DNA of 64,000 nucleotides from Natronococcus amylolyticus DSM 10524 (GTDB lineage: Archaea; Halobacteriota; Halobacteria; Halobacteriales; Natrialbaceae), in NCBI RefSeq assembly GCF_000337675.1, contig NZ_AOIB01000026.1:66580-130579 (forward strand). Direction: 5' to 3'. Numbering within the stretch: position 1 is the first letter of the stretch; the number at the start of each line of letters is the position of its first letter. Under the pieces are notes generated by a model. That model was not told where the DNA came from and did not search any database. It saw nothing but the letters and a program-made list of their open reading frames with translations. A program made the translations under genes and the position numbers. Shown here in pieces: positions 4,365 through 53,490 of this stretch.

Positions 4365-4496
4365 GCGAAGCGAAATTCTCCCGAAAAGCGAGCGGGGAGC
4401 GACAGCGACCCGCGAGCAGGGCGAGAGTGAGTGAATGCAACGAACGAACTCTCGGAAAAGTGAGCGGGGAACGAACGTGACCCGCGAGCAGGGCGA
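4351..4496. repeat. Hairpin and imperfect tandem repeat after the rhodanese gene
   Basis: GAGAATT and AATTCTC around the stop codon (about 4352-4382) form a possible terminator hairpin. Two copies of a ~52-bp unit, about 4371-4424 and 4445-4496, share GAGCGGGGA and CCCGCGAGCAGGGCGA. The rest of the gap up to 4688 shows no convincing gene. Confidence 0.5.
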
Positions 4497-11362: not shown

Positions 11363-11689
11363 CGACGCGGGTCGGGGTCGACGTTGGGGTCGAGGTCTGC
11401 AGGGGATCGACCCGGCCTCGTCGCTCGGCCGACCGGCGGTAAGTCGAAACCGTCCGAACGCCGGAGTCGACTCGAATGTCGTCGATCAGGCCGCAGATCA
11501 GCGCGTCGACCGAGCCAGCGAAGACGTGGGGACCCTCGCGTCACGACCGTTCGGCGGTATACGAGTAACACGAAGCAGGAAGGACACAGCACTAACATAA
11601 GAATATTTAACTTTTTCAAATAAAATCTACATCTCGGATTAATTGACAAACCGTTGAATTGATCACGGGATGGGGAAGATTGCTAACGG
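11363..11689. other. Intergenic region, partly AT-rich; possible gene remnant
   Basis: The part nearest the next gene (about 11565-11665) is markedly AT-rich and should hold its promoter (AAGAATATTTAAC). On the minus strand, about 11385-11530, one frame reads like the end of a real protein (VFAGSVDALICGLIDDIRVD) but has a TGA just upstream and no start, so it may be a decayed gene. No intact gene is seen. Confidence 0.4.
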
Positions 11690-13519: not shown

Positions 13520-13530
13520 GAACGCGTCGA

Positions 13531-14301: not shown

Positions 14302-15326
14302 GGCGGACACCCCAGCGCCTCGAGGAGTCGATCGTTCGCCTCGCGGTCCTTGACCGCCACCCGGACGTGGGAGTCCAGTCCCCGGAACGTCGTCGCGTCC
14401 CGGATCGCGACCCCGTTCTCGCGAGCGCGCTCGAGGACGTCCGCCACGCACCGATCGCCGACGTCACACAGGAGGTAGGGAGCGTCCGAGGGGGCGACCT
14501 CGAAGCGGGCCGAAAGCGCCTCCCACATCCGCTCGCGCTCGCGGGCGACCCGGGTGCGGGTCTCGCGGACGAACTCGTCCTGGCGCAGACAGTAGGCGCC
14601 GACCCGCGCGGCGGGCGTTCCCAGCGACCAGGTCCGACGGGCTGTCTCGAGGTCGTCCCGTAGCTCACCGCTCGCGACCGCAAAGCCCGCCCGTAGCCCG
14701 GGGAGACCAAACAGTTTCGTGAGCGAGCGCGCGACGACGACGTCCTCGCTGTCGAACTCTGTGACCGACGAGAGGTCGGTAAACCCGAGGAACGCCTCGT
14801 CGACCAGCAGGGTCGTTCCGGCCTTGCCACAACGGGTGGCAAACGCCGCGAGCGCGTCGGTGTCGGCCGCCTCTCCCGTGGGATTGTTCGGCGTGCAGAC
14901 GACCGCCAGCGCGCAGTCCGCGAGCGCGTCGGTCCCGATCTCGAGTACGTTGTCAGCGTGGACGAACGCAGGTGTCGCACCCTGCAGCTGAACCTCGCGG
15001 GCGTACTCGCCGAAGCTGGGGTAGGGGACCAGTGCGCTGTCGCCGGGCTCGAGGATGCACTCCATCGTCAGTCGGATCGCGGCTAACCCGCCCGGCGTCG
15101 GGATCACGCGCTCGGGATCGCAGCCGACGAACTCGGCCCCGGCCGCCCGGTAATCTGGGTAGGCGTCGTCGGGGTAGCGTCGACTCGCCTCGAGGGCGTC
15201 CCGGTAGACCCGTTCCGTCCCGTCGGGCGTCTCGGGGTTCGTGTTCGCCGAGAAGTCCAGGATCTCGCGGTCGGGCTCGCCGCCGTGGGGCACCCGCTCG
15301 GCGGTGCGGATCGCGTCAGGATCCAT
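14298..15326 (-). CDS. cobD: Threonine-phosphate decarboxylase / class I aminotransferase CobD
   Basis: A 342-residue fold-type I PLP enzyme. FSANTNPETPDG is the CobD-type N-terminal motif, VVCTPNNPTGEAADT the cofactor loop and VARSLTKLFGLPGLRAG includes the PLP lysine. It should make (R)-1-amino-2-propanol phosphate for CbiB. The ATG at 15324-15326 gives the family N-terminus and overlaps the cobT end by 11 nt. Confidence 0.92.
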   Translation of the reverse strand: MDPDAIRTAERVPHGGEPDREILDFSANTNPETPDGTERVYRDALEASRRYPDDAYPDYRAAGAEFVGCDPERVIPTPGGLAAIRLTMECILEPGDSALVPYPSFGEYAREVQLQGATPAFVHADNVLEIGTDALADCALAVVCTPNNPTGEAADTDALAAFATRCGKAGTTLLVDEAFLGFTDLSSVTEFDSEDVVVARSLTKLFGLPGLRAGFAVASGELRDDLETARRTWSLGTPAARVGAYCLRQDEFVRETRTRVARERERMWEALSARFEVAPSDAPYLLCDVGDRCVADVLERARENGVAIRDATTFRGLDSHVRVAVKDREANDRLLEALGCPP

Positions 15327-36465: not shown

Positions 36466-37995
36466 CTACCCGTCGCTTCCGGGAGCGATCTCGATCTCGT
36501 CGAAGCTGGCCAGATCGCCCGCTTCGGCCCGTTCGACGGCGTCGAGCGCGTCGACGTAGCCGGCGCCGACCGATTCTGCGGTGTAGTCGTCGTGGACGTC
36601 CTCGATAGCCGTCGCCTCGAGCGTCGTCAGCACGTCCATCGGGTCGGGGTACTCGCCGTGGGACTCGTAGTAGGCGTCGACGGCCAGCGTCGCACAGCCC
36701 GCGGTGACGGGACAGGACATGCTCGTCCCCGACATGGGTCCGTAGTACAGCTCCTCGTCCGGCTCGGCGACGTTGAGCGGATCGGCGGGATTGAGCGTAC
36801 TCACCACGTCGCCACCCTTCGCGGCGACGCCGTTACGGTAGATCCCCAGTGGGCCGTCGATCTCGTCCTCGTCGGCTCCCCCGTACAGCGTGGTGAGGTT
36901 CTCGTAGGCCGACTCGCGGTCGTAGTTGTCGTGGTCCCAGGAGCCGTCCTGGGGACGCCCGCGCGAGGAGAAGTCGGTTACAGTTTGATCGGCTTCGGTC
37001 GCCGCGACGCCGAGGACGTGGGGCGCTTTCGTATACTGGCTCAGCGTCCCCTTCTCGGGGCCGCTGTTACCCGCCGAGAACACCGGCAGGACTCCATCCT
37101 CGTGGGCCTCCCAGGTGGCGACGTTCATCGGGTCGTCGGGGACGAACGGTCGGTCGTCATCGACGGGGCCGTAGGAGTTCGAGACGACCTGAACGTCGTG
37201 GTCGCCCTCGCGCTGGCGCCGGAGCAGGTCGTCGTAGGCCGCGACGGTGTAGACGACCAACAGCCCGCCGGCGCCGCAGGCGTAGACCGTGAGGTCGGCG
37301 TCGGGGGCCATCCCGGCGTACTCGCCGTCGCTCTTCGAGCCGTCGCCGCCGACGCTGCCCGCGCAGTGGGTGCCGTGGCCGCTGTTGTCGCTGTCGACGA
37401 GGCCGACGTCCTGCCACCACAGCGGGTCGGTGACCTCGGGGACGCCGACGTACTGGTAGTTGGCCTGCAGGTTCGATTCGAGGTCGGGATGGGCGCCGTC
37501 GACGCCCGAGTCGACGACGACGGTGTGGGCGTTCTCGCCGGTGTAGGCGGTCTCGAGGCCATCGCCCGCCACCACTTGATCCGCTCCCGTATCAGTGCGG
37601 GCGTCGTCGTTGTGGTACTCGAGTTCGTAGTTCGAGGAGACGTACCGGACTTCCGCCCAGCCCGCGACCCGCTCGATCAGCGGACCGGTGAGTTCGGCGT
37701 AGGCCATCGGGAGGACGGCGAACCGGCCGACGAGGACGTCGAGATCGAGCAACCGGTCGGCGTCCTCGTTGGTTTCGAAGACGACGATCGTCTCCTGGCT
37801 CTCCTCGCTCTCGAGGTCGAGCGCGTCGTCGACGAGCGTGTCGCCGACGCTGGTAAGTCCGTCCACGATATCGCCGACCAACGCGCTCGCGCTACCCGTG
37901 AAGCCGATTCCGCCAGCGATCCCGGCGACGCCGGTTCCCGCGAGGAACCGTCGCCGCGTCGACTCGTCGGTCGTCGGTTGTGACTGTCGCGTCAT
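36466..37995 (-). CDS. Tat-exported S8 family serine peptidase (subtilase 1)
   Basis: 509 residues. TRRRFLAGTGVAGIAGGIGF is a Tat signal. An I9-like propeptide follows (ETIVVFETNEDADRLL...VRYVSSNYELEY). The triad is Asp in VVVDSGVDGAHPD, His in GHGTHCAGS and Ser in SGTSMSCPVTAG, with the oxyanion Asn in SAGNSGPE. It is probably an extracellular protease. It shares extended sequence with the subtilases at 38131 and 43091, so these are duplicates. Its own AT-rich upstream (GTATAAAATAC at 38071-38081) suggests an extra promoter. Confidence 0.93.
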   Translation of the reverse strand: MTRQSQPTTDESTRRRFLAGTGVAGIAGGIGFTGSASALVGDIVDGLTSVGDTLVDDALDLESEESQETIVVFETNEDADRLLDLDVLVGRFAVLPMAYAELTGPLIERVAGWAEVRYVSSNYELEYHNDDARTDTGADQVVAGDGLETAYTGENAHTVVVDSGVDGAHPDLESNLQANYQYVGVPEVTDPLWWQDVGLVDSDNSGHGTHCAGSVGGDGSKSDGEYAGMAPDADLTVYACGAGGLLVVYTVAAYDDLLRRQREGDHDVQVVSNSYGPVDDDRPFVPDDPMNVATWEAHEDGVLPVFSAGNSGPEKGTLSQYTKAPHVLGVAATEADQTVTDFSSRGRPQDGSWDHDNYDRESAYENLTTLYGGADEDEIDGPLGIYRNGVAAKGGDVVSTLNPADPLNVAEPDEELYYGPMSGTSMSCPVTAGCATLAVDAYYESHGEYPDPMDVLTTLEATAIEDVHDDYTAESVGAGYVDALDAVERAEAGDLASFDEIEIAPGSDG

Positions 37996-38130: not shown

Positions 38131-39627
38131 CTACTCGCCGCCAGGTGCGATTGTGGCCTCGCCGAAGTCGGCGAGGTCGTCTGCCTCCGCCCGTTCGACC
38201 GCGGCGTAGACGTCGGCGAACCCGGCACCGACCGATTCCGCGGTGTAGTCGTCGTGGACGTCCTCGACGGCCGTCGCCTCGAGCGTCTTCAGCACGTCGA
38301 TCGCGTCGGGGTACTCGCCGTGGGTCTCGTAGTAGGCGTCGACGACCAGCGTCGCACAGCCGGCGACGCCGGGACAGGCCATACTCGTCCCCGAGAGGCG
38401 GCCGTAGAAGATCTCCTCGTCGGTTTCGGTCGCCTGCAGCGCGTGGGTGGGGTTGAGCGTGCTCATCACGCTTCCGCCCTTCGCGGCGACGCCGTTGCGG
38501 TAGACTCCCAGCGGGCCGTCCGGGTCGTCGCCCGAGTAGAACGCCTGGTGGTTCTCGAAGGCCGTCTCGCGGTCGTAGTTGGTCACTCCATCGAAGTCGG
38601 GGGACCGTCCGCGCGAGGAGAAGTCGGTTACCGTCTGGTCGGCCTCGGTCGCCGCCACACCCAGGACGTGGGGGCCGCGGGTGTAGAAGTTAAGCGTGTT
38701 CGTCTCGGGGCCGTCGTTGCCGGCGGCGAACACGGGCAGGATGTCGGCCTCGAACGCGTGCCAGGTGGCGACGTTGCCCGGATCGTTCGGGTCGTAGTCC
38801 TCGTCCTCGGCCAGCCCGTACGAGTTCGACACGACCTGGATATCGGTCTCGCCCGACTGCTTGCGCTCGATCATGTGGTCATAGGCCGCGACGATCGTGA
38901 CGAGCGTCAGCGAGAGGTTCGCCGAGTAGGAGGTCAGCGCCGTGTCGGGAGCGATCCCCTTGTACTCGCCGTCGCTCTCGGTGCCGTCGCCGCCGACGGT
39001 GCCACAACAGTGGGTCCCGTGCCCGTTGTCGTCGGTGTTCACGGGCCCGAGGTCCTCCCAGAGGACGTCCTGCTCGAGCGGATCGCCGACCCACTGCCAG
39101 TTCGCTTCGAGGTTCCCTTCGAGGTCGGGGTGGGCGCCATCGACGCCGGTGTCGATGACGGCCGTGTGAACGTTCTCGCCGGTGTAGGCCGTCTCGAGGT
39201 CCTCGCCGTCCTGGACGCGGTCGGCACCGGTCGTCTCCCGGCTGTCGTCGTTGAAGTACTCCAGGTCGCGGTTCGCGGAGACGTACCTGACCTCGTCCCA
39301 GTCGGCGACCGCGAGCAGCTGCTCGCCCGTGAGTTCGGTGTAGCCGACCGGGAGGACCGCGAAGGAGTGATACCCCAGAGCGAGGTCCAGTTCCGCGAGG
39401 CGGTCGACCTGGTCGTTCTCCTCGAAGACGACGAGGGTCTCCTGGAGGGCGTCGCTCGCGGTGTCGAGCGTCTCGTCGACGATCGTCTCGTCGGCCGCCG
39501 CGCTCCCGGCGAAGGGGAGCGTCGTCGCGAGACCGGCGGCGCCGACGCCGGCGACGAATCGTCTGCGGGTCGATGCACTGGCTGCGTCGGTTCGCGTCTC
39601 GGTGGTCGAGTTTGTGGTGTCTGTCAT
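38131..39627 (-). CDS. Tat-exported S8 family serine peptidase (subtilase 2)
   Basis: 498 residues. STRRRFVAGVGAAGLATTLPF is the twin-arginine signal; the I9-like segment ETLVVFEENDQVDRLAEL follows. The triad lies in AVIDTGVDGAHPD, GHGTHCCGTVGG and SGTSMACPGVAG, with AAGNDGPE as the oxyanion loop. Three cysteines around the active site are shared with its neighbours. It is 85 bp after the M14 gene and 135 bp before subtilase 1. Confidence 0.93.
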   Translation of the reverse strand: MTDTTNSTTETRTDAASASTRRRFVAGVGAAGLATTLPFAGSAAADETIVDETLDTASDALQETLVVFEENDQVDRLAELDLALGYHSFAVLPVGYTELTGEQLLAVADWDEVRYVSANRDLEYFNDDSRETTGADRVQDGEDLETAYTGENVHTAVIDTGVDGAHPDLEGNLEANWQWVGDPLEQDVLWEDLGPVNTDDNGHGTHCCGTVGGDGTESDGEYKGIAPDTALTSYSANLSLTLVTIVAAYDHMIERKQSGETDIQVVSNSYGLAEDEDYDPNDPGNVATWHAFEADILPVFAAGNDGPETNTLNFYTRGPHVLGVAATEADQTVTDFSSRGRSPDFDGVTNYDRETAFENHQAFYSGDDPDGPLGVYRNGVAAKGGSVMSTLNPTHALQATETDEEIFYGRLSGTSMACPGVAGCATLVVDAYYETHGEYPDAIDVLKTLEATAVEDVHDDYTAESVGAGFADVYAAVERAEADDLADFGEATIAPGGE

Positions 39628-39712
39628 GGTCGTGTTCGGGTATCGGTTGGTCGTTTCTCGGTTCGATCGATCGTGTCGCCGACTCGCAACCGGGATCGTC
39701 CCGGCAGTTCGG

Positions 39713-42700
39713 TTACGTGTCCTCCGCGACGACGGTCACCTCTCGGTCGGTCCCCTCGAGGTCGATCCACTCCCGGTCGGTCAGCGTGGCGTCGTCGTCG
39801 GTATCGCGCGAGACGGCGATCGGACCGAACTCGTAGACGTCGCTGTCCAGGACGTCGTCGGGTGCCTCGGCGAAGTGGGTCAGCTCCTCGTAGGCGTCCT
39901 GGGGATCGTCGACGCCGAAGTAGACGTGGGTGCCGCCGTCCGTCGCCGGCGTCGTCGCCTCGACGTCGCCGTGGTCCTCGTCGACGTCCCAGTTCTCGGG
40001 CACCGTATCGCGGACGAGGACGGGCTCGTCCTCAGGCTCGAGGACCTCGACGTCGAGTTCGGTGCGGTTGGTCTGGCCGCCCGTGAAGACGGAGCCGGAG
40101 TCATCGCGCTCGCCTGTGGCCTCGAACTCGGGTTCGGGCTGGGCGACGGGAGCCGGATCCTGGTCGGCGTCGCCGATCGTCCGCTCGAGGTCGCCGTCGA
40201 CGAACCGGCGCTGTTCCATCCCGAGGGCGTTGACGAACGCCGTGAGCCCGAAGTACGCGAGCACGTAGTTTTTGAGCCCGAACGGGTGGAGCTCCTCCTG
40301 GCTGGCCGGCGGCAGGAGGCCGCCGATCGCGTGGATGCCCTGCCACTCCTCGTCGTCGGTGAAGATCGAGCCCGCGCTCACCAGATCGTCGGTCGTGCCG
40401 GCGACCGCACCGCCCGACGCTTCGAACGCGTCCGCGTCGAGCAGCGTCATCGGGGCGTCGTCGGCGTAGGGGTAGCCCAGTGGCGCCACCTTCCAGGTCA
40501 TCCGCTGGATCGGTCGGGTGTCGGTCAGCAGCGGGTGGTCCTCGTCTTTGTCCTCGAGGTGACTGACGCCGAACGTCTCGTCGGTGACGTCGTCGTCGCC
40601 GATCTCGGAGGCGGTCTCCATGTCGGCCAGCAGGTGGAGGCCGGTGTCGGTCACGACGAGGTTGCCGCCCGCGTCGACGAACTCGTCGACGTTTGCGACG
40701 TACCCCTCGGGGTCGTCGCCGCGGTCGTCGTGGACGATCACGAGGTGGTCGGCGTCGACGCCCGCTTCGGCGACCTCCTCGGGGGTGAGCGCCTCGGTCG
40801 CGACCAGTTCGTTGTCGGTATCGAAGTCCTCGAAGAAGGCGAGCGGCGTCACCTCGTACGCCTCCTGTTCGAACCCGAGCGCGTCGCGCGGATCGGGGTG
40901 GTCGTACTCGGACTGGAGGGTGCCGACGTTGACGTCCATCGCGACCGGGTTCTCGGCCATCAGGCTCGTGATCTCGAGGCTCCACTCGCCGGCGTCGGGC
41001 TCTCGAATCACGAACGGCTCGAAGTCGTGGTGGGCCTCGCCGCCGGTCTCGGAGGGGCGGTAGGCGCGGACTTCCTCGCCGTCGGGATCGAAGAGGACGA
41101 CGTCGGCCAGGTCCTGCTCGGCGTGGGCGTGGACCGAGAGGGTGTGCAGCCCCTCCGCGACGTCGAAGGCGACGGTTCCGGTCTCCTCGGGGTCGACCTC
41201 GGCCTCGTACTGCTCGCTCGAGAGGTCGGTGGTGGTCTCCTCGTTATCTGGATCGTCCTGCAGGAACTCGAGGTCCTCGGAGCTGCGGGTGAGGGTATCG
41301 CTCGTGACGTAGGCAACCGTCTCGCCCTCGCCGTCGGCGGTCGCGACCTCGCTGTCGACGTCCCGCAGCGCGTACTCGGTCATCGTCCGCATCGATTCCA
41401 TGTAGCCCTCGACCCACATCTCGGCCAGGGCGGGTTCGTACTTGTTCCCGCCGACCATGTGGCTGTACGCCATCTCGAAGGCCATCGTCGTCATGTCCAG
41501 GCCGCCCCGTTCCTCCGAGGCGCCCATGAAGCCGATCAGCCCGCCAGTGATGGTGTAGCCGATCGTGTCCCAGATCGTCGAGTAGTCGTAGGCGGTCTCG
41601 GGGAGTACCGGGAAGCCCATCGCATCGGTGTTGAAGTCGTCCGTCGCCGCCTCCTGTGCGTCGGCGAGCCCCTCCCATTCGTCGAGTTTCTCCTCGAGAC
41701 TCTCCTCTAAGACCTGATTCATCTCGTAGAGATCGTGGAACTCGTCCTGGGTGTACTCGATCTGGTTGATCAGCCCCAGGATGAAATCGGAGTTCCACAG
41801 CATCGCGTGGAGGTCGGCGCCGTGGGTGAGGTTGTCGTACTGGCGGAAGTGCTCGACGGCCCCCATCGCGTCCGGCACCGTGTTGATGATGTCGTGAGGG
41901 TTGTCCTCGGCCCAGCGGCTCTCGTCGGGTTCACCAGGGTGGTGGGCCGGGTCGATCCACCCGATGCTGGGGTACTGGCGGTTGGTGTCGAACACCTGGG
42001 AGTTGCCCCGCTCGTACTGCGGCCAGGCGGGGAGGCGGGTGTCGTCCCGCCCCTCGCCGGCGACCTGCCAGCCGCTGTCGTACTGCGGATCGCGAGCCAC
42101 CCAGCCGTCGGGGTTCACCGAGAGGATGATGAGCACGCACTCCTCGAGCAGCCGCTCGTACTCGGTCTCTCGGCCGGTCACGATGCGCTCGATGAAGCGG
42201 TAACAGGCCTCGGGACCGGCGCGCTCGAGGCCGTGTATCGAGGCCTCGAACACCACCTTCTGTCGGTCGGCGAACTCGTCGCTCTCGCGGAACTCCGCAA
42301 CGGTGTCGTACCCTTCGGGCGGTTTCGTCAGTTCGGCGACGTGGAGGTCCTTCGGGTCGTGCCGGTCGGTGAAGTTGTTGGTGTGGCCGGGGCTCTGGTC
42401 GTAGGTGACGTCGTGAGGGTTGTCCGCGTCGGCGAGCGCGTAGAAGTTGAGCGTGTCCGCGTGCTCTGCCTCGAGGTGGTCCATCCCGTCGATCATCTGC
42501 TCGTAGTGGATGAAGTCGACGGAGCGATAGGGCGCCGGGAAGACGCCGAGCGGGTACTCACCCAGTCGCCAGAACGGGTTCGAGCCCGGCGTGTAGCTCA
42601 ACTCTTCGGTGCTCGGGAGGTCGAGGGCCTCCTCGACCTGCGCCGTCGTCAGCTGCGCGTAGACGGCCGGCGGACTCTCGAGGACGAGGTCGTCGTTCGT

Positions 42701-43039
42701 CGCCGCCTCGAGGTCGAGGCCGAGGCCCAGCAGGTCATCGATCGCCGATTCGTCCTCGAGGCGAATCAGCGTCGCGACCGCGTAGTCGTCGGGTGTGTGG
42801 TTGACGACGTACTCGTACTCGTCGGTCATCGCCGAATCCACGAGGTCGGCGACGGCGTTGCCGGGCAGGGTCAGCGCCGCGCCGACGGCCGCGGCCAGCT
42901 TGCCGAACTGCCGGCGGTCGATGGAGACGCCGTCGAACGCGCCTGCGTCCGGGACCTCGTGGCCGTGACCGTGGCCGCGGTGGTCGTGTTGGTCGTCGGT
43001 TTCGCTTCCTCGGTCGGTGGATGGATCGTGCTTGCTCAT
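39713..43039 (-). CDS. Tat-exported M14 family zinc carboxypeptidase, multi-domain
   Basis: A 1108-residue secreted protein. The N-region before the Tat motif is histidine-rich (HDHRGHGHGHE); DRRQFGKLAAAVGAALTLPG is the signal. The M14 domain has the zinc pair in SIHGLERAGPE (HxxE), a second histidine in THGADLHAML and a candidate catalytic Glu in MAFEMAYSH. A long beta-rich region follows with a glutamine-amidotransferase-like part (about 700-900), then a ~133-residue C-terminal module nearly the same as in the large subtilase at 44688. It likely trims peptides outside the cell. Confidence 0.88.
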   Translation of the reverse strand: MSKHDPSTDRGSETDDQHDHRGHGHGHEVPDAGAFDGVSIDRRQFGKLAAAVGAALTLPGNAVADLVDSAMTDEYEYVVNHTPDDYAVATLIRLEDESAIDDLLGLGLDLEAATNDDLVLESPPAVYAQLTTAQVEEALDLPSTEELSYTPGSNPFWRLGEYPLGVFPAPYRSVDFIHYEQMIDGMDHLEAEHADTLNFYALADADNPHDVTYDQSPGHTNNFTDRHDPKDLHVAELTKPPEGYDTVAEFRESDEFADRQKVVFEASIHGLERAGPEACYRFIERIVTGRETEYERLLEECVLIILSVNPDGWVARDPQYDSGWQVAGEGRDDTRLPAWPQYERGNSQVFDTNRQYPSIGWIDPAHHPGEPDESRWAEDNPHDIINTVPDAMGAVEHFRQYDNLTHGADLHAMLWNSDFILGLINQIEYTQDEFHDLYEMNQVLEESLEEKLDEWEGLADAQEAATDDFNTDAMGFPVLPETAYDYSTIWDTIGYTITGGLIGFMGASEERGGLDMTTMAFEMAYSHMVGGNKYEPALAEMWVEGYMESMRTMTEYALRDVDSEVATADGEGETVAYVTSDTLTRSSEDLEFLQDDPDNEETTTDLSSEQYEAEVDPEETGTVAFDVAEGLHTLSVHAHAEQDLADVVLFDPDGEEVRAYRPSETGGEAHHDFEPFVIREPDAGEWSLEITSLMAENPVAMDVNVGTLQSEYDHPDPRDALGFEQEAYEVTPLAFFEDFDTDNELVATEALTPEEVAEAGVDADHLVIVHDDRGDDPEGYVANVDEFVDAGGNLVVTDTGLHLLADMETASEIGDDDVTDETFGVSHLEDKDEDHPLLTDTRPIQRMTWKVAPLGYPYADDAPMTLLDADAFEASGGAVAGTTDDLVSAGSIFTDDEEWQGIHAIGGLLPPASQEELHPFGLKNYVLAYFGLTAFVNALGMEQRRFVDGDLERTIGDADQDPAPVAQPEPEFEATGERDDSGSVFTGGQTNRTELDVEVLEPEDEPVLVRDTVPENWDVDEDHGDVEATTPATDGGTHVYFGVDDPQDAYEELTHFAEAPDDVLDSDVYEFGPIAVSRDTDDDATLTDREWIDLEGTDREVTVVAEDT

Positions 43040-43090
43040 AGTCTCTGGAGTTCGCGTCTGGTCGGTTGGTCGGTCGGTTCGGTGCCGTCG

Positions 43091-44572
43091 CTACTCTCCG
43101 CCGGCCAGTTCGATCTCGTCGAACGTCGCCAGGTCGCCGTCCTCGACCCGCTGTGCGGCCGCCAGCGCGTCGACGTAGCCCGCACCGGCGTTGGTCGTCG
43201 TGTAGTCGGCCGTCCCGTTCGCGTCCTCGAGTTCGTCGGTCGCCGCGAGATCCGCGGTCGCCTCGAGCGTCGAGATCACGTCGATCGGGTCGGGGACCTC
43301 GCCGTGGTGTTCGAGGTAGGCGTCGAGCGCGAGGGCGGCACAGCCGACGGCGACGGGACAGGCCATGCTCGTTCCACTCAACAGACCGTACCACAGCTCG
43401 TCGTCGTCCTCCAGCGCCCACAGCGGTTGGGCGGGATTCAGCGTGCTCATCACGTCGGCGCCCTTCGCGGCGACGCTCGGACGGTGGAGCCCGAGCGGGC
43501 CGTCGATCTCGTCCTCCGGAACGCCCGAGTAGAAGTCGGCGACGTTCTCGAAGGCCGTCTCGCGGTCGTGGTTGCCCTCGACGTCACCCCGCGAGGAGAA
43601 GTCGGTGACCGACTGATCCGCGTGGGTGGCGGCGACGTTCATCACGTACGGCGCCTGCTTGCGCTGGCCGAGCGTGTCGTTCTCGGGCCCGTCGTTGCCC
43701 GCCGAGAACGCGACGAGGACGTCGGCCTCGTAGGCGTACCAGGTGGCGACGTTCAGCGGATCCCAGGGATCGAACTCGCCGGGGCCGGCGCCGTAGGAGT
43801 TCGACGCGAGGTGGATCTCGTGTTCGCCGTCCTCTTGGAGCGCGAGCAGGTGGTCGTACGCCGACGTGGCCTTCAGCAGCGTGACCGACGCGTTCGTCGA
43901 GTACGACGTCAGCGTGACGTCGGGCGCCATCCCGCGGTACTCACCGTCGCTCTCGGATCCGTCGGCGCCGATGCTTCCGCTGCAGTGGGTGCCGTGGCCG
44001 ACGTCGTCGCTGTTCGTGAGGCCGAGATCGACCCAGACGTCCTCGTCGCCGCTCTCGTCGAGCGGGTTCCCGACCCACTGCCAGTTCGCTTCGAGGTTCT
44101 CCTCGAGGTCCGGGTGGGCGCCATCAATACCCGTGTCGATAACGGCCGCGTGGACGTTCTCGCCGGTGTAGGGCGTCTCGAGGTCCTCACCCTCCTGGAC
44201 GTCGCGGGCACGGGTGTCGGGTCTGGCGTCGTCGTGCTCCCAGTCAAGTTCGACGTTCGGCGAGACGCGCCGGACCTCGTCCCAGCCGGCGACGGTCTCG
44301 AGCTGATCGCCTGAGAGCAGGCTGTAGCCGATCGGGAGCGTCTCGTAGCCGTAGAACCCCTCCGCGAGGTCCAGCTCCGCGAGGCGATCGACGTCGTCGA
44401 CGTCCTCGAAGACGACCAGCGTCTCCTGGAGGTCGTCGGTGTCGGTCTCGAGGCCCTCCGCGAGGGTCGCGGCAGCGCTCCCGCTGAGCGCGACCGCCCC
44501 GGCGCCGGCTGCGCCGACGAGCCGGAGGACCTGGCGTCGGTTCGATACTGTCGAGTGTTGGGTGGGTGGCAT
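43091..44572 (-). CDS. Tat-exported S8 family serine peptidase (subtilase 3)
   Basis: 493 residues from the ATG at 44572 (an upstream in-frame ATG would add a basic, non-coding-looking 44 residues). SNRRQVLRLVGAAGAGAVAL is the Tat signal, followed by an I9-like segment. The triad: AVIDTGIDGAHPD, GHGTHCSGSIG, SGTSMACPVAVG; oxyanion SAGNDGPE. It resembles subtilases 1 and 2 throughout. It is 115 bp after the large subtilase and 51 bp before the M14 gene, so one operon is plausible. Confidence 0.92.
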   Translation of the reverse strand: MPPTQHSTVSNRRQVLRLVGAAGAGAVALSGSAAATLAEGLETDTDDLQETLVVFEDVDDVDRLAELDLAEGFYGYETLPIGYSLLSGDQLETVAGWDEVRRVSPNVELDWEHDDARPDTRARDVQEGEDLETPYTGENVHAAVIDTGIDGAHPDLEENLEANWQWVGNPLDESGDEDVWVDLGLTNSDDVGHGTHCSGSIGADGSESDGEYRGMAPDVTLTSYSTNASVTLLKATSAYDHLLALQEDGEHEIHLASNSYGAGPGEFDPWDPLNVATWYAYEADVLVAFSAGNDGPENDTLGQRKQAPYVMNVAATHADQSVTDFSSRGDVEGNHDRETAFENVADFYSGVPEDEIDGPLGLHRPSVAAKGADVMSTLNPAQPLWALEDDDELWYGLLSGTSMACPVAVGCAALALDAYLEHHGEVPDPIDVISTLEATADLAATDELEDANGTADYTTTNAGAGYVDALAAAQRVEDGDLATFDEIELAGGE

Positions 44573-44687
44573 TCGGTTTCGTGATCGGTGGGATCGATTC
44601 ACACGGCGCACTCGAGCGCCCGTGGTGTGGCGGTTCCGTCGGTTCGGGAAGAAGGGCGTTATCCGGTCGAACGCCCGGTCGGGACGA

Positions 44688-47399
44688 TCAGGTTTCCTCG
44701 GCAACGACGGTAACCGTCCGGTCCGTACCGCTGATCGTGGTCCACTCGCGGTCGGTGAGCGTGCCGTCGTCGTCCGTGTCGGTGGTGACGGCGATCGGTC
44801 CGAACGTGTCCCGTCCGGAGTCCTCGATCTCGTCGGGCGCCTCGGCGAAGTGAGTCAGCTCCTCGTAGGCGTCCTGGGGGTCGTCGACGCCGAAGTAGAC
44901 GTGGGTGCCGCCGCCGAAGGCGGGAGTCGTCGCCTCGACGTCGCCGTGGTCCTCGTCGACGTCCCAATCTTCGGGCACCGTATCCCGGACCATGACCTCC
45001 TCGCCGTCGGGGTGGCGGACCTCGACGTCGAGTTCGGTGCGGTTCGTCTGGCCGCCGGTGAACACGGAGGCGTCGTCCTCGCGCTCGCCCTCGACGAGCA
45101 GCCCCGCTTCGTCGAACGCGGTCTCGAGGTCGAGGTGGGCCCGGCAGTCGAAGCCGTTGACCAGTCCGGGGACGTTCACCAGCTTCGCGACGACGTAGAA
45201 CACGCGCTCGCCGCCGTTGTTCTCGAGGTCGTCCGGGGAGACCGTCGTCGAGACCGCGGCGTCGCCCTCGATACCGGCGTCGCTGTCGACGATCGTCGGA
45301 TCACCGGTCTGCTCGTCGGGGTTCTGGGCGTCGTAGAGGAAGAGATCGACGTGTGGGTCGCCCTTGGTCGCACTCTCGTTCCCGCCGCTGTAGTGGCTGA
45401 AGGCGACCTCGGCGTCGATCTCGCCAGGATCGCTCACGCGGACGTGTCCGGCGATCGCCCGTTCGTCCTCGGGGACGGCGAGGCCGACGGTTCCCGAGAC
45501 GGCGTCGTCGGTGAGATCGCGGGTCGCGGCGTCGATTGCGGGGCCGACGTTCGCCCGGCCGTATCCCTCGAACTGGTCGCGGCCGCCGTGGGTGTACCGG
45601 GGCGCCTTCGCCCGGTGGTAGGGGGCCGCGGTCAGCGCCGTCTCGCTCGCGGTCGCCAGCAGGGTCTGTTTGAGCCGGAAGACGTCGTCCCGGTCGGCGC
45701 CGGCCGGCTCGTCGAGTGCGATCGCCTCGGGTGCGTCGAACTCCATCGCTTCCGCGACGACGCCGGCGATCCCCGCCAGGGAGGGCGCTGCCATCGAGGT
45801 CCCGGCCTTTCCGGTATAATCGCGGACACCGTCGCTCCCGTCGCCCTCGGTGTTCGCGCCGGCCAGCGGCGACTCCAGCGACGTGTCGAGGCTGACGTCC
45901 CCCAGGGCGTCGAGGACGGAGTCGGCGAGGTCGACCTCGTAGTCGGCGGGGCCGGTGATCGCGTCGTCGAAGGTGGTCTTCGGCTCGAGATCGCTCTCGT
46001 CTACCTCGTCGAGCTCGGAGACGGGCTCGAGTTCGGCGTCGGCGACGTCGTCTTCGGGTTCGGTCTCGGTGACGTCGTCTTCGGGCTCGCCCTGCAGTGC
46101 GGCGATGTCGGGGACGTTCAACGTCCCGCCGGGGGCGGTGACGTCGGGTTTCATGTAGGGCTCGTCGTGTTCGTCGATGCCAGCGATCCCCCCGGAGGAG
46201 TACGCCGAGATCCCGTCACGGGCGCCGGTCGCGACGACCGAGATCGCCTCGCGGACGACCGCTGGTGCGGCGTTTCCGGAAGCCGGCGTGGCGTCGTTGC
46301 CGGCCGCCGCGACCGAGAGGATCCCCGCGTCCGCCAGGTTTCCGATGGCCTCGGGGACGTCGTCGAGGCGTCCGCCGGCCGCGCCGAGCGGGACGCCGCC
46401 GACGTATCCCCAGGACATGTTCACCGCGCGGACGTTGAGCTCCTCGGCAAACTCCTCCGCGTAGTCACCCATCTCGACGGTCGGGTCGCCGAGTCCCGAC
46501 AGCGAGACGATGCCAGCGTCGGGCGCGATGCCGGCGTGCATCGAGCGGTCGCCGTCTTCGGTCCGGTCGCCGACGGTGTCGGTCGGATCGACGAACGCGC
46601 CGACGGCCACGCGCTCGACGGTCCCCGACGAGACGAGTTCGCCCTCCTGGGCGCGGACGTGGACGGTGTAGGTCTCCTCGCCGTCGTCGTGGACCGTCGG
46701 CGTCTGGGCGACGACGTTTTCCTCGAGGCTCGTGCCCACGAGGTCGCTGGAGGTCGTGATCTCCTCGCCGTCGGGACCCTCGATCGCGATCTCGACGAGT
46801 TCGCCGTAGACGCTGGCGAAGACGCCGCTGTGGGCCTCGGCGTCGACCTCGTAGGAGAGGGTATCGCCGAGGACGAGCGTCGTCCGGGGTTCGTCCTCCT
46901 GGTATTGGCTCCCGTCGAACCCGCTTGCCCGCCCGGTGCCGGCCATGATCGAGGCGACGTGGGTCCCGTGGCCGTTGGAGTCCCGCGGCCGGGAGTACTC
47001 GCCGTAGCGATCGAAGTCGTTGTGCCAGGCGACGAGTTTCGTCGTGTTCGAGGTGGTGTTTCCACCGGTGTTAGCGAACGGATTGCCGTCGATCTCGAAC
47101 CCGTCTTCCGTCGAGACCGTCGCCCCGCTCCAGGGACCGAGATCGGGGTGGCGCGAGTCGGTGCCGCTGTCTGTCAGTGCGAGCGTTCGGTCGGCTCGCC
47201 CGCGATACCCTCGGTTCCAGGCCTGTAGGGCCTCGCGTACCCGTACGTTCGCGAACGCCGTATCGACGTCCTCGCTGGCTCCGACGGTGGACACGCCGGC
47301 ACCGGTTCCGAGCAGCCCGGCTCCGACGAGCGCACTGGTTCCCGCGACGAATTTTCGCCGCGTCGTGCCTGTTGTGTTTTCAGAGTTGTCTTGCGACAT
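44688..47399 (-). CDS. Large Tat-exported S8 family serine peptidase with C-terminal module
   Basis: 903 residues. TTRRKFVAGTSALVGAGLLG is the Tat signal. Asp lies in LTDSGTDSRHPDL, His in GHGTHVASIMAG (after a loop), Ser in GTSMAAPSLAG. Two inserts are seen: a ~90-residue beta segment after the histidine and an acidic stretch (DDVTETEPEDDVADAE). The last ~133 residues repeat the M14 C-terminal module. Its promoter box at 47436-47450 lies at the end of the Bat gene. Confidence 0.92.
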   Translation of the reverse strand: MSQDNSENTTGTTRRKFVAGTSALVGAGLLGTGAGVSTVGASEDVDTAFANVRVREALQAWNRGYRGRADRTLALTDSGTDSRHPDLGPWSGATVSTEDGFEIDGNPFANTGGNTTSNTTKLVAWHNDFDRYGEYSRPRDSNGHGTHVASIMAGTGRASGFDGSQYQEDEPRTTLVLGDTLSYEVDAEAHSGVFASVYGELVEIAIEGPDGEEITTSSDLVGTSLEENVVAQTPTVHDDGEETYTVHVRAQEGELVSSGTVERVAVGAFVDPTDTVGDRTEDGDRSMHAGIAPDAGIVSLSGLGDPTVEMGDYAEEFAEELNVRAVNMSWGYVGGVPLGAAGGRLDDVPEAIGNLADAGILSVAAAGNDATPASGNAAPAVVREAISVVATGARDGISAYSSGGIAGIDEHDEPYMKPDVTAPGGTLNVPDIAALQGEPEDDVTETEPEDDVADAELEPVSELDEVDESDLEPKTTFDDAITGPADYEVDLADSVLDALGDVSLDTSLESPLAGANTEGDGSDGVRDYTGKAGTSMAAPSLAGIAGVVAEAMEFDAPEAIALDEPAGADRDDVFRLKQTLLATASETALTAAPYHRAKAPRYTHGGRDQFEGYGRANVGPAIDAATRDLTDDAVSGTVGLAVPEDERAIAGHVRVSDPGEIDAEVAFSHYSGGNESATKGDPHVDLFLYDAQNPDEQTGDPTIVDSDAGIEGDAAVSTTVSPDDLENNGGERVFYVVAKLVNVPGLVNGFDCRAHLDLETAFDEAGLLVEGEREDDASVFTGGQTNRTELDVEVRHPDGEEVMVRDTVPEDWDVDEDHGDVEATTPAFGGGTHVYFGVDDPQDAYEELTHFAEAPDEIEDSGRDTFGPIAVTTDTDDDGTLTDREWTTISGTDRTVTVVAEET

Positions 47400-47435
47400 G
47401 GAGTAACAGAGGGAGATTACAATAAAGAATCGTGA

Positions 47436-47450
47436 ACCAAATCGGTTAGG
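47436..47450 (-). promoter_or_regulatory. Shared upstream box, copy 1
   Basis: ACCAAATCGGTTAGG begins 37 bp from the start of the large subtilase. The copy before the LVIVD gene (51927-51941) has the same spacing and 13 of 15 identical bases, and bases toward the gene also match in part. It overlaps the regulator's stop codon. Confidence 0.6.
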
Positions 47451-49455
47451 CCATCAGTTCGGCCAGGTCGACCGGCGGCTGGTGATCGAAGTACGCGCTA
47501 ATGAGTTTGCGCTGGCACGTCCGGAGGTGCTCGTGGAAGGTCGGCTCCGTGATCCCGAGGACCTCGGCGACCTCGCCGCTGTTCGCCCCGCGCGGCCAGT
47601 CGAAAAAGCCCGAGAGATACGCGGCCCGCAACACCTCCCGCTGGCGATCTGTCAGGGCATCGTCGAACGCCTCCCTGACCACCGCATCCGAGGGCTCGGT
47701 CCGCTCGCGCTCGCGCTGGGCGACGAGTTCGGTTCGGTCGTAGTACTCCTCGAGGCCGTCGACGACCGCACGGACGTCGGCGTCGTAGGGGAGTTCGACG
47801 ACGAACCGTCCCTCGCCGTCGTCGGCGTCCGCCTCCCGGACGACGCCCCCGTAATCGGCGATGGTTCCGGACACCGACGGCTCCGGGCCGGTCAACCGAA
47901 AGACACACTCCTTCCCGTGGTCCGCTACGACGGTCGCCTCGACGTCCGGGTCGTCGCCGACAGTCGAAAGCACCGTCTCGCAGTTTGCACCGCTTATGGT
48001 GATGAACGCGGCGACTTCCCCGTCGCCGGTCGGCGAGACCCCCTCGACGGTCAGCTCACAGCCGAGTTCCGCCGACAGCGCCACGTAGCCGATCGACCGA
48101 TCGCGGGTCAGGAACTCGAGTTCGATAACTGAGTTGGTGACGAGCGCGCGCCGTCGCTCGGCCGCGCTGATCGCGTACGCGACGGTCTCGCCGAGATCGG
48201 CGAGCACGGCCTGTTCGTCCTTATCGAAGGCCTCCGGACGCGGCGCGTACACGCAAAGCACCCCGTAGGTCGTTTCGCGATAGCGAAGCGGCACCGCGAT
48301 CGCCGACCGGAAACCACGCTCCAGGGCCGCCTCGCGCCACGGTTCGAACTCGGGGTCCTCAGCGATGCGCAGTGCGGTCTGAATCTCGCCCGTTCGGATC
48401 GCGGTCGCCGCCGTGATGTGATCGCCCCGCTGTGCTTCGACATCGGGACGGTCCTCGAGATACCCCTTTTCGATTCCCGCCCACGCCCGCGGCGTGACGT
48501 GGTCGCTTGCGGCACCCTGTTCACCGATCCACGCGAACCGGTACGGTTCCTTTTTGGCCAGGTGGGTGCATACCGCCTCCTCGATTTCTTCGCGGGTCGA
48601 GGCCCGAACGAGCGCCTGGTTGACCTCCCGGATGACCGCGTTAATGTGGTTCACCGTTCGCAACTGCTCGGCCTGTTCGGCCAGGGCATGCTGGCGGCGT
48701 TTGCGATCCGTTATGTCCCGCCCGATTCCGCTGATCCGAGCGCCCTCCTCGGTGTCGAGCAGCGCGCCCGTGAACTCGTAGGGGATCTCCTCGCCGTCCT
48801 TGGTTACGAGATCCGCTTCCGTTCGGACGCTCCCGCTCTCGAGGACCCGTCGGACCGCTGCCTCGATCGCCGCTACGTCCTCGTCGGCGACGAAGTCGGA
48901 CGGCGACATCGACGCGATTTCGTCACCGTCGTACCCGGTCACCTCGGGCAGCCGGTCGTTCCACTGGAGCAGGTTGCCGTCCGGATCGAAGACGAAAAAC
49001 AGATCGTTCGACCGTCGGAGTGCCTCCCGAGTGAACTTCGCCTCTCGGGTATCGATCGCGGCTCTGAGCGCAGTCGCGAGATGTGCCACCGTCGCGTTCC
49101 GGTCGTCCCCCCAGTGTACGCACCGATCGACTCCGGCCGAGAGCGCTCGTTCTGCCGTCCGGTTGTCCTCGTAGAGGACGATCCACGCGCTGGCCGGGAC
49201 CTCCCGTTTCTTTTCGGCAATACGCGAATCGACAACGTCGGGGCCACAGACGATACAGTCGATCCGGTCGGCTCGAGTCCCGATCTCGGATAGCTCCGAA
49301 CGGAGTGTTACGTTGATCCCGCGTTCCCCGTCGAGTCGTTTTCCGAGGGCCTCGACGTCCGGGTTTCTGGATACGAGCGCCGTAGTGATCGTTCGGTGGT
49401 CGCGACTGGGTCGACACCCGAGATGACGATCGCCAGTTCGATCGGAACTCTTCAC
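47446..49455 (-). CDS. Bat-type multi-domain regulator (pseudo-receiver-PAS-GAF-BAT-HTH_10)
   Basis: About 669 residues with a likely GTG start at 49453-49455. A receiver-like N-terminal domain reads DCIVCGPDVV where a phospho-Asp is expected, so it is probably not phosphorylated. A PAS domain (NDLFFVFDPDGNLLQWN, about 150-265), a GAF domain (ALVRASTREEIEEAV, about 280-430), a bacterioopsin-activator domain and a C-terminal HTH_10 (LTDRQREVLRAAYLSGFFDW) follow. It lies between two genes sharing the same upstream box, so it may control the peptidase island. The start codon is uncertain. Confidence 0.85.
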   Translation of the reverse strand: MKSSDRTGDRHLGCRPSRDHRTITTALVSRNPDVEALGKRLDGERGINVTLRSELSEIGTRADRIDCIVCGPDVVDSRIAEKKREVPASAWIVLYEDNRTAERALSAGVDRCVHWGDDRNATVAHLATALRAAIDTREAKFTREALRRSNDLFFVFDPDGNLLQWNDRLPEVTGYDGDEIASMSPSDFVADEDVAAIEAAVRRVLESGSVRTEADLVTKDGEEIPYEFTGALLDTEEGARISGIGRDITDRKRRQHALAEQAEQLRTVNHINAVIREVNQALVRASTREEIEEAVCTHLAKKEPYRFAWIGEQGAASDHVTPRAWAGIEKGYLEDRPDVEAQRGDHITAATAIRTGEIQTALRIAEDPEFEPWREAALERGFRSAIAVPLRYRETTYGVLCVYAPRPEAFDKDEQAVLADLGETVAYAISAAERRRALVTNSVIELEFLTRDRSIGYVALSAELGCELTVEGVSPTGDGEVAAFITISGANCETVLSTVGDDPDVEATVVADHGKECVFRLTGPEPSVSGTIADYGGVVREADADDGEGRFVVELPYDADVRAVVDGLEEYYDRTELVAQRERERTEPSDAVVREAFDDALTDRQREVLRAAYLSGFFDWPRGANSGEVAEVLGITEPTFHEHLRTCQRKLISAYFDHQPPVDLAELMA

Positions 49456-49799
49456 GCTAGCGGATATATATCGGGAAACTGCAAATTCCTTACGATCATT
49501 TATTGAAGAATCCGGTACACCCGACTCCTCTGTTCGTTCGGTTTCCCGATGCCACTCACGGGATAAAGAAGGCGGACCCTCCGTAAGCATTTGATCGCGA
49601 TTCCGCCGTAACCAGGCCGGAGCGAGTCCGGAGGGTTCCACCTACCGTGGCGACTGAAACAATTTACACATTGCCCACGGACAGCGCCCGACGAGTCGAG
49701 GAGAACACTTGATATGGGCGAGCGCCTCCCCGCGTTTACCCCATCGCCGCCCGAAACGGTCAACAACCCGGGCAAGAGCGCGGTTCTTCCCACCTCCGC
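49456..49799. other. Intergenic region upstream of the Bat-type gene
   Basis: About 340 bp between codirectional genes. AT-rich patches at 49463-49472 (GATATATATC) and 49495-49505 (TCATTTATTGA) are candidate TATA boxes for the Bat gene; the second gives a better distance to the GTG start. A weak inverted repeat, ACCCTCCG/CGGAGGGT, lies at 49576-49636. No gene is seen. Confidence 0.45.
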
Positions 49800-51890
49800 C
49801 TACGTCTCGAGCCCGACGACGGTCTTCGTGACGGTCTCGCCGTTCTCCTTCCGCCAGCCGAAGTTGTTGACGCTGACGCCACCACCGTACTCGCCCGCCG
49901 GGTCGGGACGGGCGTACTCGACCGGCCCGACCGTGTACGAACCGGTGTCGATCAGCTCGGTCGGCACCTCGACGAAGTACCGCACCGTCCCCTCTTCGAC
50001 GGTTTCGTCGGCAGTCACGACTTTGCGCTTCCCGTCACTGATCTCGTCGACGCTGACGTCGCCGCCGACGACCTCCCAGTCGCCCGGGATACGGTCGCGG
50101 ACCCGGACCGGTTCGTCGCTGTCGACGTGGATCCGCACCTGACTGGTCTGGCCCGCCGTGAACAGCGAGCCGTCGGCCTCACGTTCGACGTCGAGATCGA
50201 TCGGCGTGTCCTCGCCGACGGTCACGTCGTCGTGGGCGATCGCCTGCGTCCCCTCGTTGATCCCGCCGGCGAAGGCCACGCCGTTGCGAGCGACCGCACA
50301 CCAGTGGAACGGCGTTCCCGTCGAGAGGGCGCCGAGGGCGGCGTCGTCGGGAATATCGGGCCCGACCCGGCTGTACCCGGTCTCCTCGAGCCCGGAGTCG
50401 TCGGTGATCTCCAGAAACCGTGTCCCCGCGTGGTAGTGCCCAAGGACGACGGTCCCGTCGGCGTCGATGTCGAGGTTGTGCGCGCTCAGGTTGAAGTCGT
50501 CGAACCCCTCGTACTCCTGGTCATCGTCCTCGGCCTCCGCTTCGAAGCCGGGCGTCTCGTCGAACGTCTGCTCGTCCGACTCGAAGAGGATCCAGTAGTC
50601 CAGTTCCGTTTGCCCGTTGTCCTCGTACATCTCGAAGGCGGTTCGGGTCGCGGGCTCGACGCCGTCCTCGCGCAGCGTCGACGAGGCCCCCAGATAGACC
50701 GGGTCGTCGCGCTCGCCGGCGAGGACGGCGTCGATCGGGTCGGCGTCGACGAGGTAGTAGTGACCGCTCTCGCCGTCGTTGCGGATCCCGTCGTCCTCGT
50801 GGCTCGAGGGGTTCTCGTGGCCCGCGACGAAGACGCGCTTGTCGTTCAACAGCGTCGGCGCCGGTACCGTGTGATGGGCGCGGTCCTGTTCGAAGACGCC
50901 GAGCTCCTCGATATCTTTGGGATCGCTCACGTCGAGCAGCCGGGTGCCGGCGTTCCAGTTCGCGAGGTAGGCGACGGGCGTTCCGAACCGGGGGTCGTCC
51001 TGGACGACGATATCGTGAGCGTAGGCCTCGCCGCCGTCGGTGTCGGTTTCCGTCCCCGGCTGGGCGAGTTCGGCCGAGTAGTTCCACCAGTTGACGAACT
51101 CGAGCGTTCCGGCCTCGCGATCGAACTCAAAGACGTTGATGCCGCCGGTGACGCCGTCCTCGCCGTGGGTCGTAAAGACGTACTCCCCGCCGCCGATCTG
51201 GTGGTACCAGGCGTTGTGCGGACCGAGGGTCCATACCGACAGCGACGACTGCGTGACGAACTCGGGGTTGCCCGGATCGGAGATGTCGACGACCTCGAGC
51301 GCCGCGCCGTCGGCACCACCGGCGTCCGCGTCGTCGTCGTCGAGGTCGAGTTCGGTCTCGTCGAACAGCGCTGTGAACGGCTGCTTCGAGATGAACGCGT
51401 ACTGCCCGTCGTCCGTGAGCTTGACGTCCATGCAGGCGGCGCCGTCGTTTCGGTTGCCGAAAAAGGAGAGGACGTTGAGTTCGGCCGACTCGAGGGCCGC
51501 CTGGCTCTCGGCGCGCGTGAACTGCCCGATATCGAGGACGGCCATCCCCCGACCCGGCGTCTCGTCGCGCGAGGAAAACACCGAGAGCACCGCGATGTCG
51601 TCGTGGAGACGTAACTCGGTGAGGCCGCCGTAGTGTGGCTCGTCGGGGGAGCCGGCCATCGACGCCGAGCCGATCTCGCCGAGGCTGTGGTAGCCGACGA
51701 CGTCGGTGTTGGCGGCGGCGTCGGCGCGGTTCCCGTCGAACTGGTCGCCGTGGGGGCCGTCGGTCGTGTACTTGTGACCGCTCGCGATGCCGCCGACCGC
51801 ACTGACTCCCAGCGCGCCCGCAGCCGCCGTCAGTACCGCGCGTCTGGTCGTTCCTGTGAGCGTGTCGTTCGAAAGAGTGTCTCGCGGCAT
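49800..51890 (-). CDS. Tat-exported LVIVD-repeat-type protein with C-terminal module
   Basis: A 696-residue secreted protein. TTRRAVLTAAAGALGVSAVG is the Tat signal. The body repeats propeller-like segments such as MAVLDIGQF, LEVVDISDPGNPEF, TRLLDVSDPKDIEEL and TRFLEITDD, so a beta-propeller is likely. The last ~128 residues (LFTAGQTSQVRIHVDSDEPV...VRDRIPGDWEV) are a divergent copy of the module at the ends of the M14 and large subtilase proteins. No catalytic site was found; an adhesion, binding or scaffold role is possible. Confidence 0.85.
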   Translation of the reverse strand: MPRDTLSNDTLTGTTRRAVLTAAAGALGVSAVGGIASGHKYTTDGPHGDQFDGNRADAAANTDVVGYHSLGEIGSASMAGSPDEPHYGGLTELRLHDDIAVLSVFSSRDETPGRGMAVLDIGQFTRAESQAALESAELNVLSFFGNRNDGAACMDVKLTDDGQYAFISKQPFTALFDETELDLDDDDADAGGADGAALEVVDISDPGNPEFVTQSSLSVWTLGPHNAWYHQIGGGEYVFTTHGEDGVTGGINVFEFDREAGTLEFVNWWNYSAELAQPGTETDTDGGEAYAHDIVVQDDPRFGTPVAYLANWNAGTRLLDVSDPKDIEELGVFEQDRAHHTVPAPTLLNDKRVFVAGHENPSSHEDDGIRNDGESGHYYLVDADPIDAVLAGERDDPVYLGASSTLREDGVEPATRTAFEMYEDNGQTELDYWILFESDEQTFDETPGFEAEAEDDDQEYEGFDDFNLSAHNLDIDADGTVVLGHYHAGTRFLEITDDSGLEETGYSRVGPDIPDDAALGALSTGTPFHWCAVARNGVAFAGGINEGTQAIAHDDVTVGEDTPIDLDVEREADGSLFTAGQTSQVRIHVDSDEPVRVRDRIPGDWEVVGGDVSVDEISDGKRKVVTADETVEEGTVRYFVEVPTELIDTGSYTVGPVEYARPDPAGEYGGGVSVNNFGWRKENGETVTKTVVGLET

Positions 51891-52678: not shown

Positions 52679-52899
52679 GCGGCTCGAGGGCAGGAGAGAC
52701 ATCGGTCGTAGGGAACAGCAGACGCGGGCGACCTCGTCGCGGTTCGAAGCGTTTATACTCGGCAGTCCGATAGATCAGGATAACTCGCTGGGTCGCGGGC
52801 GCCGGCGGGCACCTGTTCGGTATCGACGCCCACAGGTCGGGATGTGATCCGCGGGGCCGGCCCGCTGGGTTGAACCAGGAAACGCCCGCAGTGATCACG

Positions 52900-53490
52900 A
52901 TGGCAAAGAGCTTCTACTCCCACATCAAGGACGCGTGGAAGGACCCCGACGACGGCAAACTCGGTGAACTGCAGTGGCAGCGCAAACAGGAGTGGCGCGA
53001 CCAGGGTGCGATCGAGCGAATCGATCGTCCGACCCGACTCGACAAGGCCCGCGAACTCGGCTACAAGGCCAAGCAGGGCATTATCGTCACTCGCGTCTCC
53101 GTCCGCAAGGGGACGGCCCGAAAACAGCGACACAAGGCTGGTCGCCGAACCAAGCGCCAGGGTGTCAACCGGATCGGCCGGCGCAAGAACATCCAGCGCA
53201 TCGGTGAGGAACGGGTCTCCCGGAAGTACCCCAACCTGCGGGTGCTCAACAGCTACTGGGTCGGCGAGGACGGCTCGCAGAAATGGTTCGAAGTGATCCT
53301 CGTGGATCCCGAACACCCCGCGATCCAGAACGACGACGACCTCAACTGGATCTGCGACGACGCCCACACCAACCGCGCGTTCCGCGGCCTCACGAACGCC
53401 GGCAAGGCAAACCGCGGGCTGAACAACCGCGGCAAGGGCGCCGAGAAGGTCCGCCCGTCCAACACGGGCGGCCAGGGCCGCGCGAAGTAA
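52900..53490 (+). CDS. rpl15e: Large-subunit ribosomal protein L15e
   Basis: A 196-residue basic protein with the L15e signature throughout: MAKSFYSHIKDAWKDPDDG, VSVRKGTARKQRHKAGRRTK, RKYPNLRVLNSYWVGEDG and a glycine/lysine-rich end. It is part of the 50S subunit, as in eukaryotes. A hairpin lies 48 bp downstream. Confidence 0.96.
   Translation: MAKSFYSHIKDAWKDPDDGKLGELQWQRKQEWRDQGAIERIDRPTRLDKARELGYKAKQGIIVTRVSVRKGTARKQRHKAGRRTKRQGVNRIGRRKNIQRIGEERVSRKYPNLRVLNSYWVGEDGSQKWFEVILVDPEHPAIQNDDDLNWICDDAHTNRAFRGLTNAGKANRGLNNRGKGAEKVRPSNTGGQGRAK

Follow-up and report, generated by a model that had tools for sequence, protein, structure and literature searches.

A predicted immunoglobulin-like C-terminal domain shared by Tat-exported proteins of Natronococcus amylolyticus and other haloarchaea, and its possible role in docking after export

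Within a stretch of 64,000 nucleotides from Natronococcus amylolyticus DSM 10524 (contig NZ_AOIB01000026.1, positions 66,580 to 130,579; hereafter the window, to which all positions refer), three proteins encoded on the minus strand end in what appears to be one and the same sequence, raising the question of why enzymes of different kinds should share a tail and what it does for them. The proteins are a zinc carboxypeptidase of family M14 (39713..43039; Pfam PF00246, E 5.5e-12), a long subtilase referred to here as S8L (44688..47399; PF00082, E 3.6e-28) and an LVIVD beta-propeller protein (49800..51890; PF08309, E 0.0013, below the Pfam cut-off), with the twin-arginine (Tat) export signals RRQFGKLAAAVGAALTLPGNAVA, TTRRKFVAG and TTRRAVLTA, respectively. 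Their tails occupy residues 976–1108 of the M14 protein (39716..40114, minus strand), 771–903 of S8L (44691..45089, minus) and approximately 569–696 of the LVIVD protein (49803..50186, minus). Using blastp, the M14 and S8L tails were found to be identical at 105 of 133 residues (79%, E 1e-63), and the diverged LVIVD tail matched that of M14 at 34 of 102 residues (33%, E 4e-12) and that of S8L with an E of 1e-12. With every pair at 4e-12 or better, chance likeness was ruled out, and the original prediction, made from the letters of the DNA alone, that a single C-terminal module of about 133 residues in M14 and S8L also ends the LVIVD protein was confirmed. It had further described the carriers as unrelated folds, and their bodies do fall into three separate Pfam folds, M14, S8 and LVIVD, the last with the sub-threshold score given above. 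The choice-of-anchor B family (TIGR04312) was not recognised on the LVIVD carrier (18 bits against a cut-off of 100, the best relative reaching 27.5). Beyond the three known sites, tblastn of the tails against the whole window gave nothing better than E 0.08, and there were no further copies in the 4.4 Mb genome. The tails of M14 and S8L are strongly acidic, with 32 and 29% aspartate plus glutamate compared to 22 and 19% in the respective bodies.

An AlphaFold (AF2) model of the M14 tail with 44 relatives was all beta, with a predicted local distance difference test score (pLDDT) of 92 and a predicted template modelling score (pTM) of 0.85, and a model of the LVIVD tail (pLDDT 79, pTM 0.69) showed the same strand order. 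From these models the tail is predicted to be a self-standing immunoglobulin-like (Ig-like) beta-sandwich of about 120–133 residues. Foldseek matches of the two models overlapped, comprising cohesin-like modules of Clostridium perfringens, YcnI and the Ig-like domains of integrins and adhesins at template modelling (TM) scores of about 0.5, so that the comparison of structures proposed with the original prediction also speaks for a common fold. Searches by sequence of Pfam, NCBIfam and the PDB did not place the tails as members of any known family. Among 44 tails, Pfam gave weak matches to DUF11 (PF01345) for four, with a best E of 0.0035, and to NEW3 (PF10633) for seven, with a best E of 0.002; the tails did not score above the gathering cut-off of DUF11, and the M14 tail of the window matched neither at E<=10. 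DUF11 and NEW3 are Ig-like domains that occur as repeats in surface proteins, whereas the tail is found once per enzyme, at its C-terminus. Repeats that match the tail profile at E 7e-8 were seen in a protein (L134) encoded by a genome outside Halobacteria; the protein itself is DUF11/BatD/bMG10-like. We read the tail, whose conserved residues include FTxGQT, RDxxPxxW and GP, as belonging to the DUF11-type Ig-like superfamily, in which it is unnamed in Pfam and NCBIfam.

In a sample of 292 Halobacteria genomes, one per species and evenly drawn, a profile search identified the tail in 24, two of these matches being weak, and matches outside Halobacteria were weak. From the Halobacteria genomes and GTDB contigs 139 distinct carriers were gathered, which as related sequences are not independent events. 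The module had been thought specific to the three proteins, a view that had to be given up, as six carrier families were found: S8L (46), LVIVD (27), M14 (24), short S8 subtilases (18), S15 X-Pro dipeptidyl peptidases (15) and purple acid phosphatases (4), along with five fragments. Each carrier has one module, which in 117 ends no more than two residues from the C-terminus, and a second carrier lies within 4 kb for 76 of them. On the tail tree about 21 changes of carrier were counted, in comparison to 75 when shuffled.

A limitation to Tat-exported proteins had been named beforehand as a result that would support a targeting role, and all 125 intact carriers were indeed found to possess a Tat signal (116 by a strict filter, nine by eye), the motif occurring in 79 of 505 other long open reading frames of the carrier loci. 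The role suggested for the module, namely sorting, surface anchoring or substrate binding, is supported in part by this confinement, a targeting or anchoring signal being no more than a possibility. Export is already explained by the Tat signal, and M14 paralogues without a tail in the same genome have a signal of this kind. Lipoproteins are numerous among haloarchaeal Tat substrates (PMC2945643); a lipobox cysteine was found in none of the 139 carriers, and lipid or transmembrane anchoring of the window carriers, which also have no C-terminal transmembrane end, was rejected. Archaeosortase signals of the PGF-CTERM type are likewise C-terminal and found on exported haloarchaeal proteins, but their tripartite arrangement of motif, transmembrane segment and basic end is not present in the window carriers, which end with the module. 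A sortase-type system was not supported, there being no NCBIfam match and no hydrophobic/basic C-terminal anchor in 117 of the 139 carriers. As the carriers are exported folded by the Tat route, the tail therefore acts either after export or in folding.

Of the carrier families, S8L shows the strictest association with the module, a link missed by the original prediction. S8L was identified in 20 of the 292 genomes, all 20 of them tail-positive, and nearly all of the 272 genomes without it also lack the tail, though many keep homologs of M14 or of the short subtilase. Homologs of M14 occur in 58 genomes, and the tail was found on M14 solely in genomes that also have S8L (10 of 14 versus none of 44 without S8L; Fisher 2e-8, a test that ignores shared ancestry), one of the ten (G251) having the tail in a separate short frame. 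Carriers of any kind other than S8L, with weak matches set aside and ancestry again ignored, were present in 14 of the 20 S8L genomes versus two of the 272 others. The window's own genome encodes three further M14 paralogues (C18, C30 and C34; L139–L141), which are 34–36% identical, possess Tat signals and lack the tail, and these are natural controls for it. The role of S8L may be that of a functional partner of the tail carriers or no more than that of the donor of the tail's DNA.

The likeness of the M14 and S8L tails is real, but what had been overlooked is that their nucleotide similarity runs past the stop codon into the next gene. Self blastn of the window gave a single match of 1.88 kb (72% identity over 1884 columns) between 38270..40114, which covers the M14 module, the gap and the short subtilase S8b (38131..39627; PF00082, E 2.4e-34), and 43254..45089, which covers the S8L module, the gap and the short subtilase S8c (43091..44572; PF00082, E 8.8e-33; the start is likely the ATG at 44572, although the listed reading frame extends to 44704), all on the minus strand. 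The match begins at the first codon of the tail, passes through the stop codon and intergenic gap and takes in nearly all of the short subtilase; the repeated unit is therefore the tail plus the downstream short subtilase, with its breakpoint at the start of the tail. Neither S8b nor S8c carries the module. In two sister genomes, those of Natronococcus sp. A-GB1 and A-GB7 (L006, L007), the series S8L–S8c–M14–S8b has shrunk to S8L–S8b, the collapse lying at the 3' edge of the tail. Junction analysis of L006 showed that the S8L copy is the best match up to the tail and that the M14/S8b copy takes its place some 150 bases or less past it, a shift taken as the mark of recombination between the unit copies. 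That the two tails owe their likeness to recent gene conversion was rejected, given that identity at four-fold sites, at 0.64 in the tail and 0.58 for the short subtilases, is barely greater in the former, and the higher protein identity of the tail is with this near-equal divergence due to constraint. Judging from these comparisons, the near-identity of the two tails stems from duplication of the unit, as does the prediction, borne out in the tree, that the Natrialbaceae tails of S8L and M14 form a single clade (support 92).

Given a domain of this kind, it is tentatively proposed that the tail is a docking domain which acts after export and brings digestive enzymes together, a reading that we prefer while holding it with less than even confidence. 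The tail would be a C-terminal addition to enzymes that become folded in the cytosol before leaving by the Tat route, and after export it would dock its carriers at one place, either the cell envelope or a common partner. The cuts made there would be complementary, with subtilases acting inside chains, M14 from the C-terminus and S15 as an X-Pro dipeptidyl peptidase, joined by the propeller and the phosphatase, and co-location would release peptides close to the cell. Recombination of the unit of tail and short subtilase would fuse the tail to new upstream enzymes and so account for its spread. The resemblance of the carrier set to a nutrient-scavenging set favors docking at one place. Also counted in favor of the proposal are the models of the fold, the Tat restriction, the closeness of carriers to one another and of S8L to a short subtilase, the confinement of M14 tails to S8L genomes, the repeated changes of carrier and the duplicated unit. 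A number of points weigh against this proposal. The docking partner is putative and no candidate for it was found; approximately 17 carriers, mostly LVIVD proteins, extend 11–71 residues past the module, often with hydrophobic and basic sequence, an extension that a module acting as anchor would make superfluous; M14 paralogues and short subtilases that lack the tail are Tat-signalled too and manage without it; and, with shared ancestry ignored in the Fisher test, S8L may simply have donated the tail's DNA.

Cohesin modules (C. perfringens 2vo8 and 2jh2; Archaeoglobus fulgidus 2xdh) were the best or near-best Foldseek matches of both tail models (TM 0.4–0.5, E 6e-4 to 9e-4), and those of C. 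perfringens are likewise attached to secreted enzymes, but sequence identity is below 20%, the TM scores are moderate, and YcnI and integrin domains score similarly. A cohesin–dockerin system was not supported, the dockerin PF00404 being found neither in the window's genome nor in 15 of the 20 module-positive genomes tested, an absence that also counts against docking. A stronger version of the docking proposal, in which the tail is an assembly tag by which a putative receptor gathers the peptidases, propeller and phosphatase exported through Tat into a complex that is bound to the surface and degrades protein, is considered improbable; if true, such a complex would be an archaeal functional counterpart of the cellulosome.

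The nearest rival to docking is a substrate-binding domain, which we regard as doubtful. By analogy with the extension of the halolysin SptA, the tail might grip protein that is large or salted out, or some other polymer, and raise the local concentration of enzyme. Such extensions (SptA, R4, Nep) are also beta-rich domains at the C-terminus of an exported haloarchaeal subtilase, and that of SptA aids activity on protein and binds insoluble substrate (PMC3158780), a precedent in a similar organism. The majority of the carriers are peptidases working on the same material, and polymers are often bound by Ig-like and jelly-roll domains. The halolysin extension differs, however, in carrying a disulfide and in having been described for halolysins only, and identity with it was rejected, since the tail profile did not match the halolysin-like protein of the genome (L162), whose cysteine-containing tail gave a best score of about 1 bit, and paired cysteines were not found, cysteine being present in merely three of 139 tails. 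Two of the carrier families, the LVIVD propeller and the purple acid phosphatase, are also not proteases. Next in order, and unlikely, is that the tail is a stabilising passenger, that is, a haloadapted Ig-like cap which aids folding or resists proteolysis and has been spread by recombination with no partner in common. The resemblance of its conserved residues to core and turn motifs of the DUF11 type would fit this explanation, as would its very acidic composition in M14 and S8L and the proneness of the tail-plus-subtilase unit to recombine, yet the restriction to Tat substrates, the near-confinement to S8L-positive genomes and the conserved clustering exceed what a generic cap would need.

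Haloarchaea are monoderm and have no outer membrane, and the Por/Spr machinery of type IX secretion is not expected in them. The C-terminal domain of that system shares with the tail an Ig-like beta-sandwich fold and a place at the very end of secreted proteins that are otherwise unlike (PMC4804311), but its function is transport across the outer membrane of Bacteroidetes and it is shorter, at about 65–80 residues. The common layout would suit a sorting or processing tag that a dedicated protease recognises and removes after export in the manner of PorU, with the neighboring short subtilase as the candidate; tail and short subtilase were duplicated jointly, and the latter adjoins S8L in 15 of the 20 genomes. 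This is the last of the rivals in order and is thought very improbable, as short subtilases exist in tail-less genomes too, some carry the tail themselves, the S15, phosphatase and many LVIVD carriers do not adjoin one, and a conserved cleavage motif was not observed.

Secreted enzymes commonly bear accessory domains at their C-terminus; the one described here is missing from the Pfam and NCBIfam catalogues, spans six unrelated families within one archaeal group and goes with a single long subtilase. It offers a way into the question of how digestive enzymes exported by archaea remain of use to the cell that produces them, and can serve as a marker in the search for more members; the repeat of tail plus protease represents a case of a domain moved between enzymes.

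The three carriers lie in a minus-strand cluster of seven genes, transcribed in the order LVIVD, a regulator of the PAS-GAF-BAT-HTH_10 (bacterio-opsin-activator) type that is not a carrier (47446..49641, by Pfam), S8L, S8c, M14, S8b and S8a, and with gaps of about 50–160 bases this arrangement is consistent with an operon. S8a (36466..37995, minus strand) is a third short subtilase paralogue without the module, sharing 61% amino acid identity with S8b. In L009 an S8a-like gene directly follows S8L, and in L006 approximately 4.9 kb with no match to the window (10012–14895) occupies the place of S8a. Compact versions of the gene set recur in other haloarchaea, for example S8L–M14–short S8–LVIVD in L010, and compact orders are also borne by Haladaptatus and Halocatena plasmids. 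The commonest non-carrier neighbors of carriers were the PAS-GAF-BAT-HTH_10 regulator (19 loci), which likely controls the exoenzyme set, and then the short subtilase (18 loci).

At 14 loci (L008:10115-10855, L095:9551-10186, L100:16390-17916, L102:17006-18490 and L110:7534-9327 among them) a winged-helix transcription regulator adjoins the carriers. Several of these regulators look like membrane proteins, combining a signal-like N-terminus with a long region rich in Asp and Thr, a hydrophobic segment and a pair of HTH domains, and the portion outside might serve the proteases as bait. Many LVIVD carriers (L029:5094-7229, L047:6306-8426, L100:8897-10927, L109:9402-11429 and others) continue past the module for an extra 29–45 residues that are Gly/Ala-rich and hydrophobic and then basic (e.g., GTIGGTAGVFYHQRE); going by this composition, such ends are perhaps a separate membrane anchor. 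A phage origin was rejected, as there was no phage match. A conserved gene reading like ribosomal protein L15e (52870–53490) adjoins the cluster in the window and also flanks carriers in L006, L007, L009, L035 and L080. Elsewhere in the window, two neighboring direct repeats of about 74 bases with 80% identity were observed at 4351–4496.

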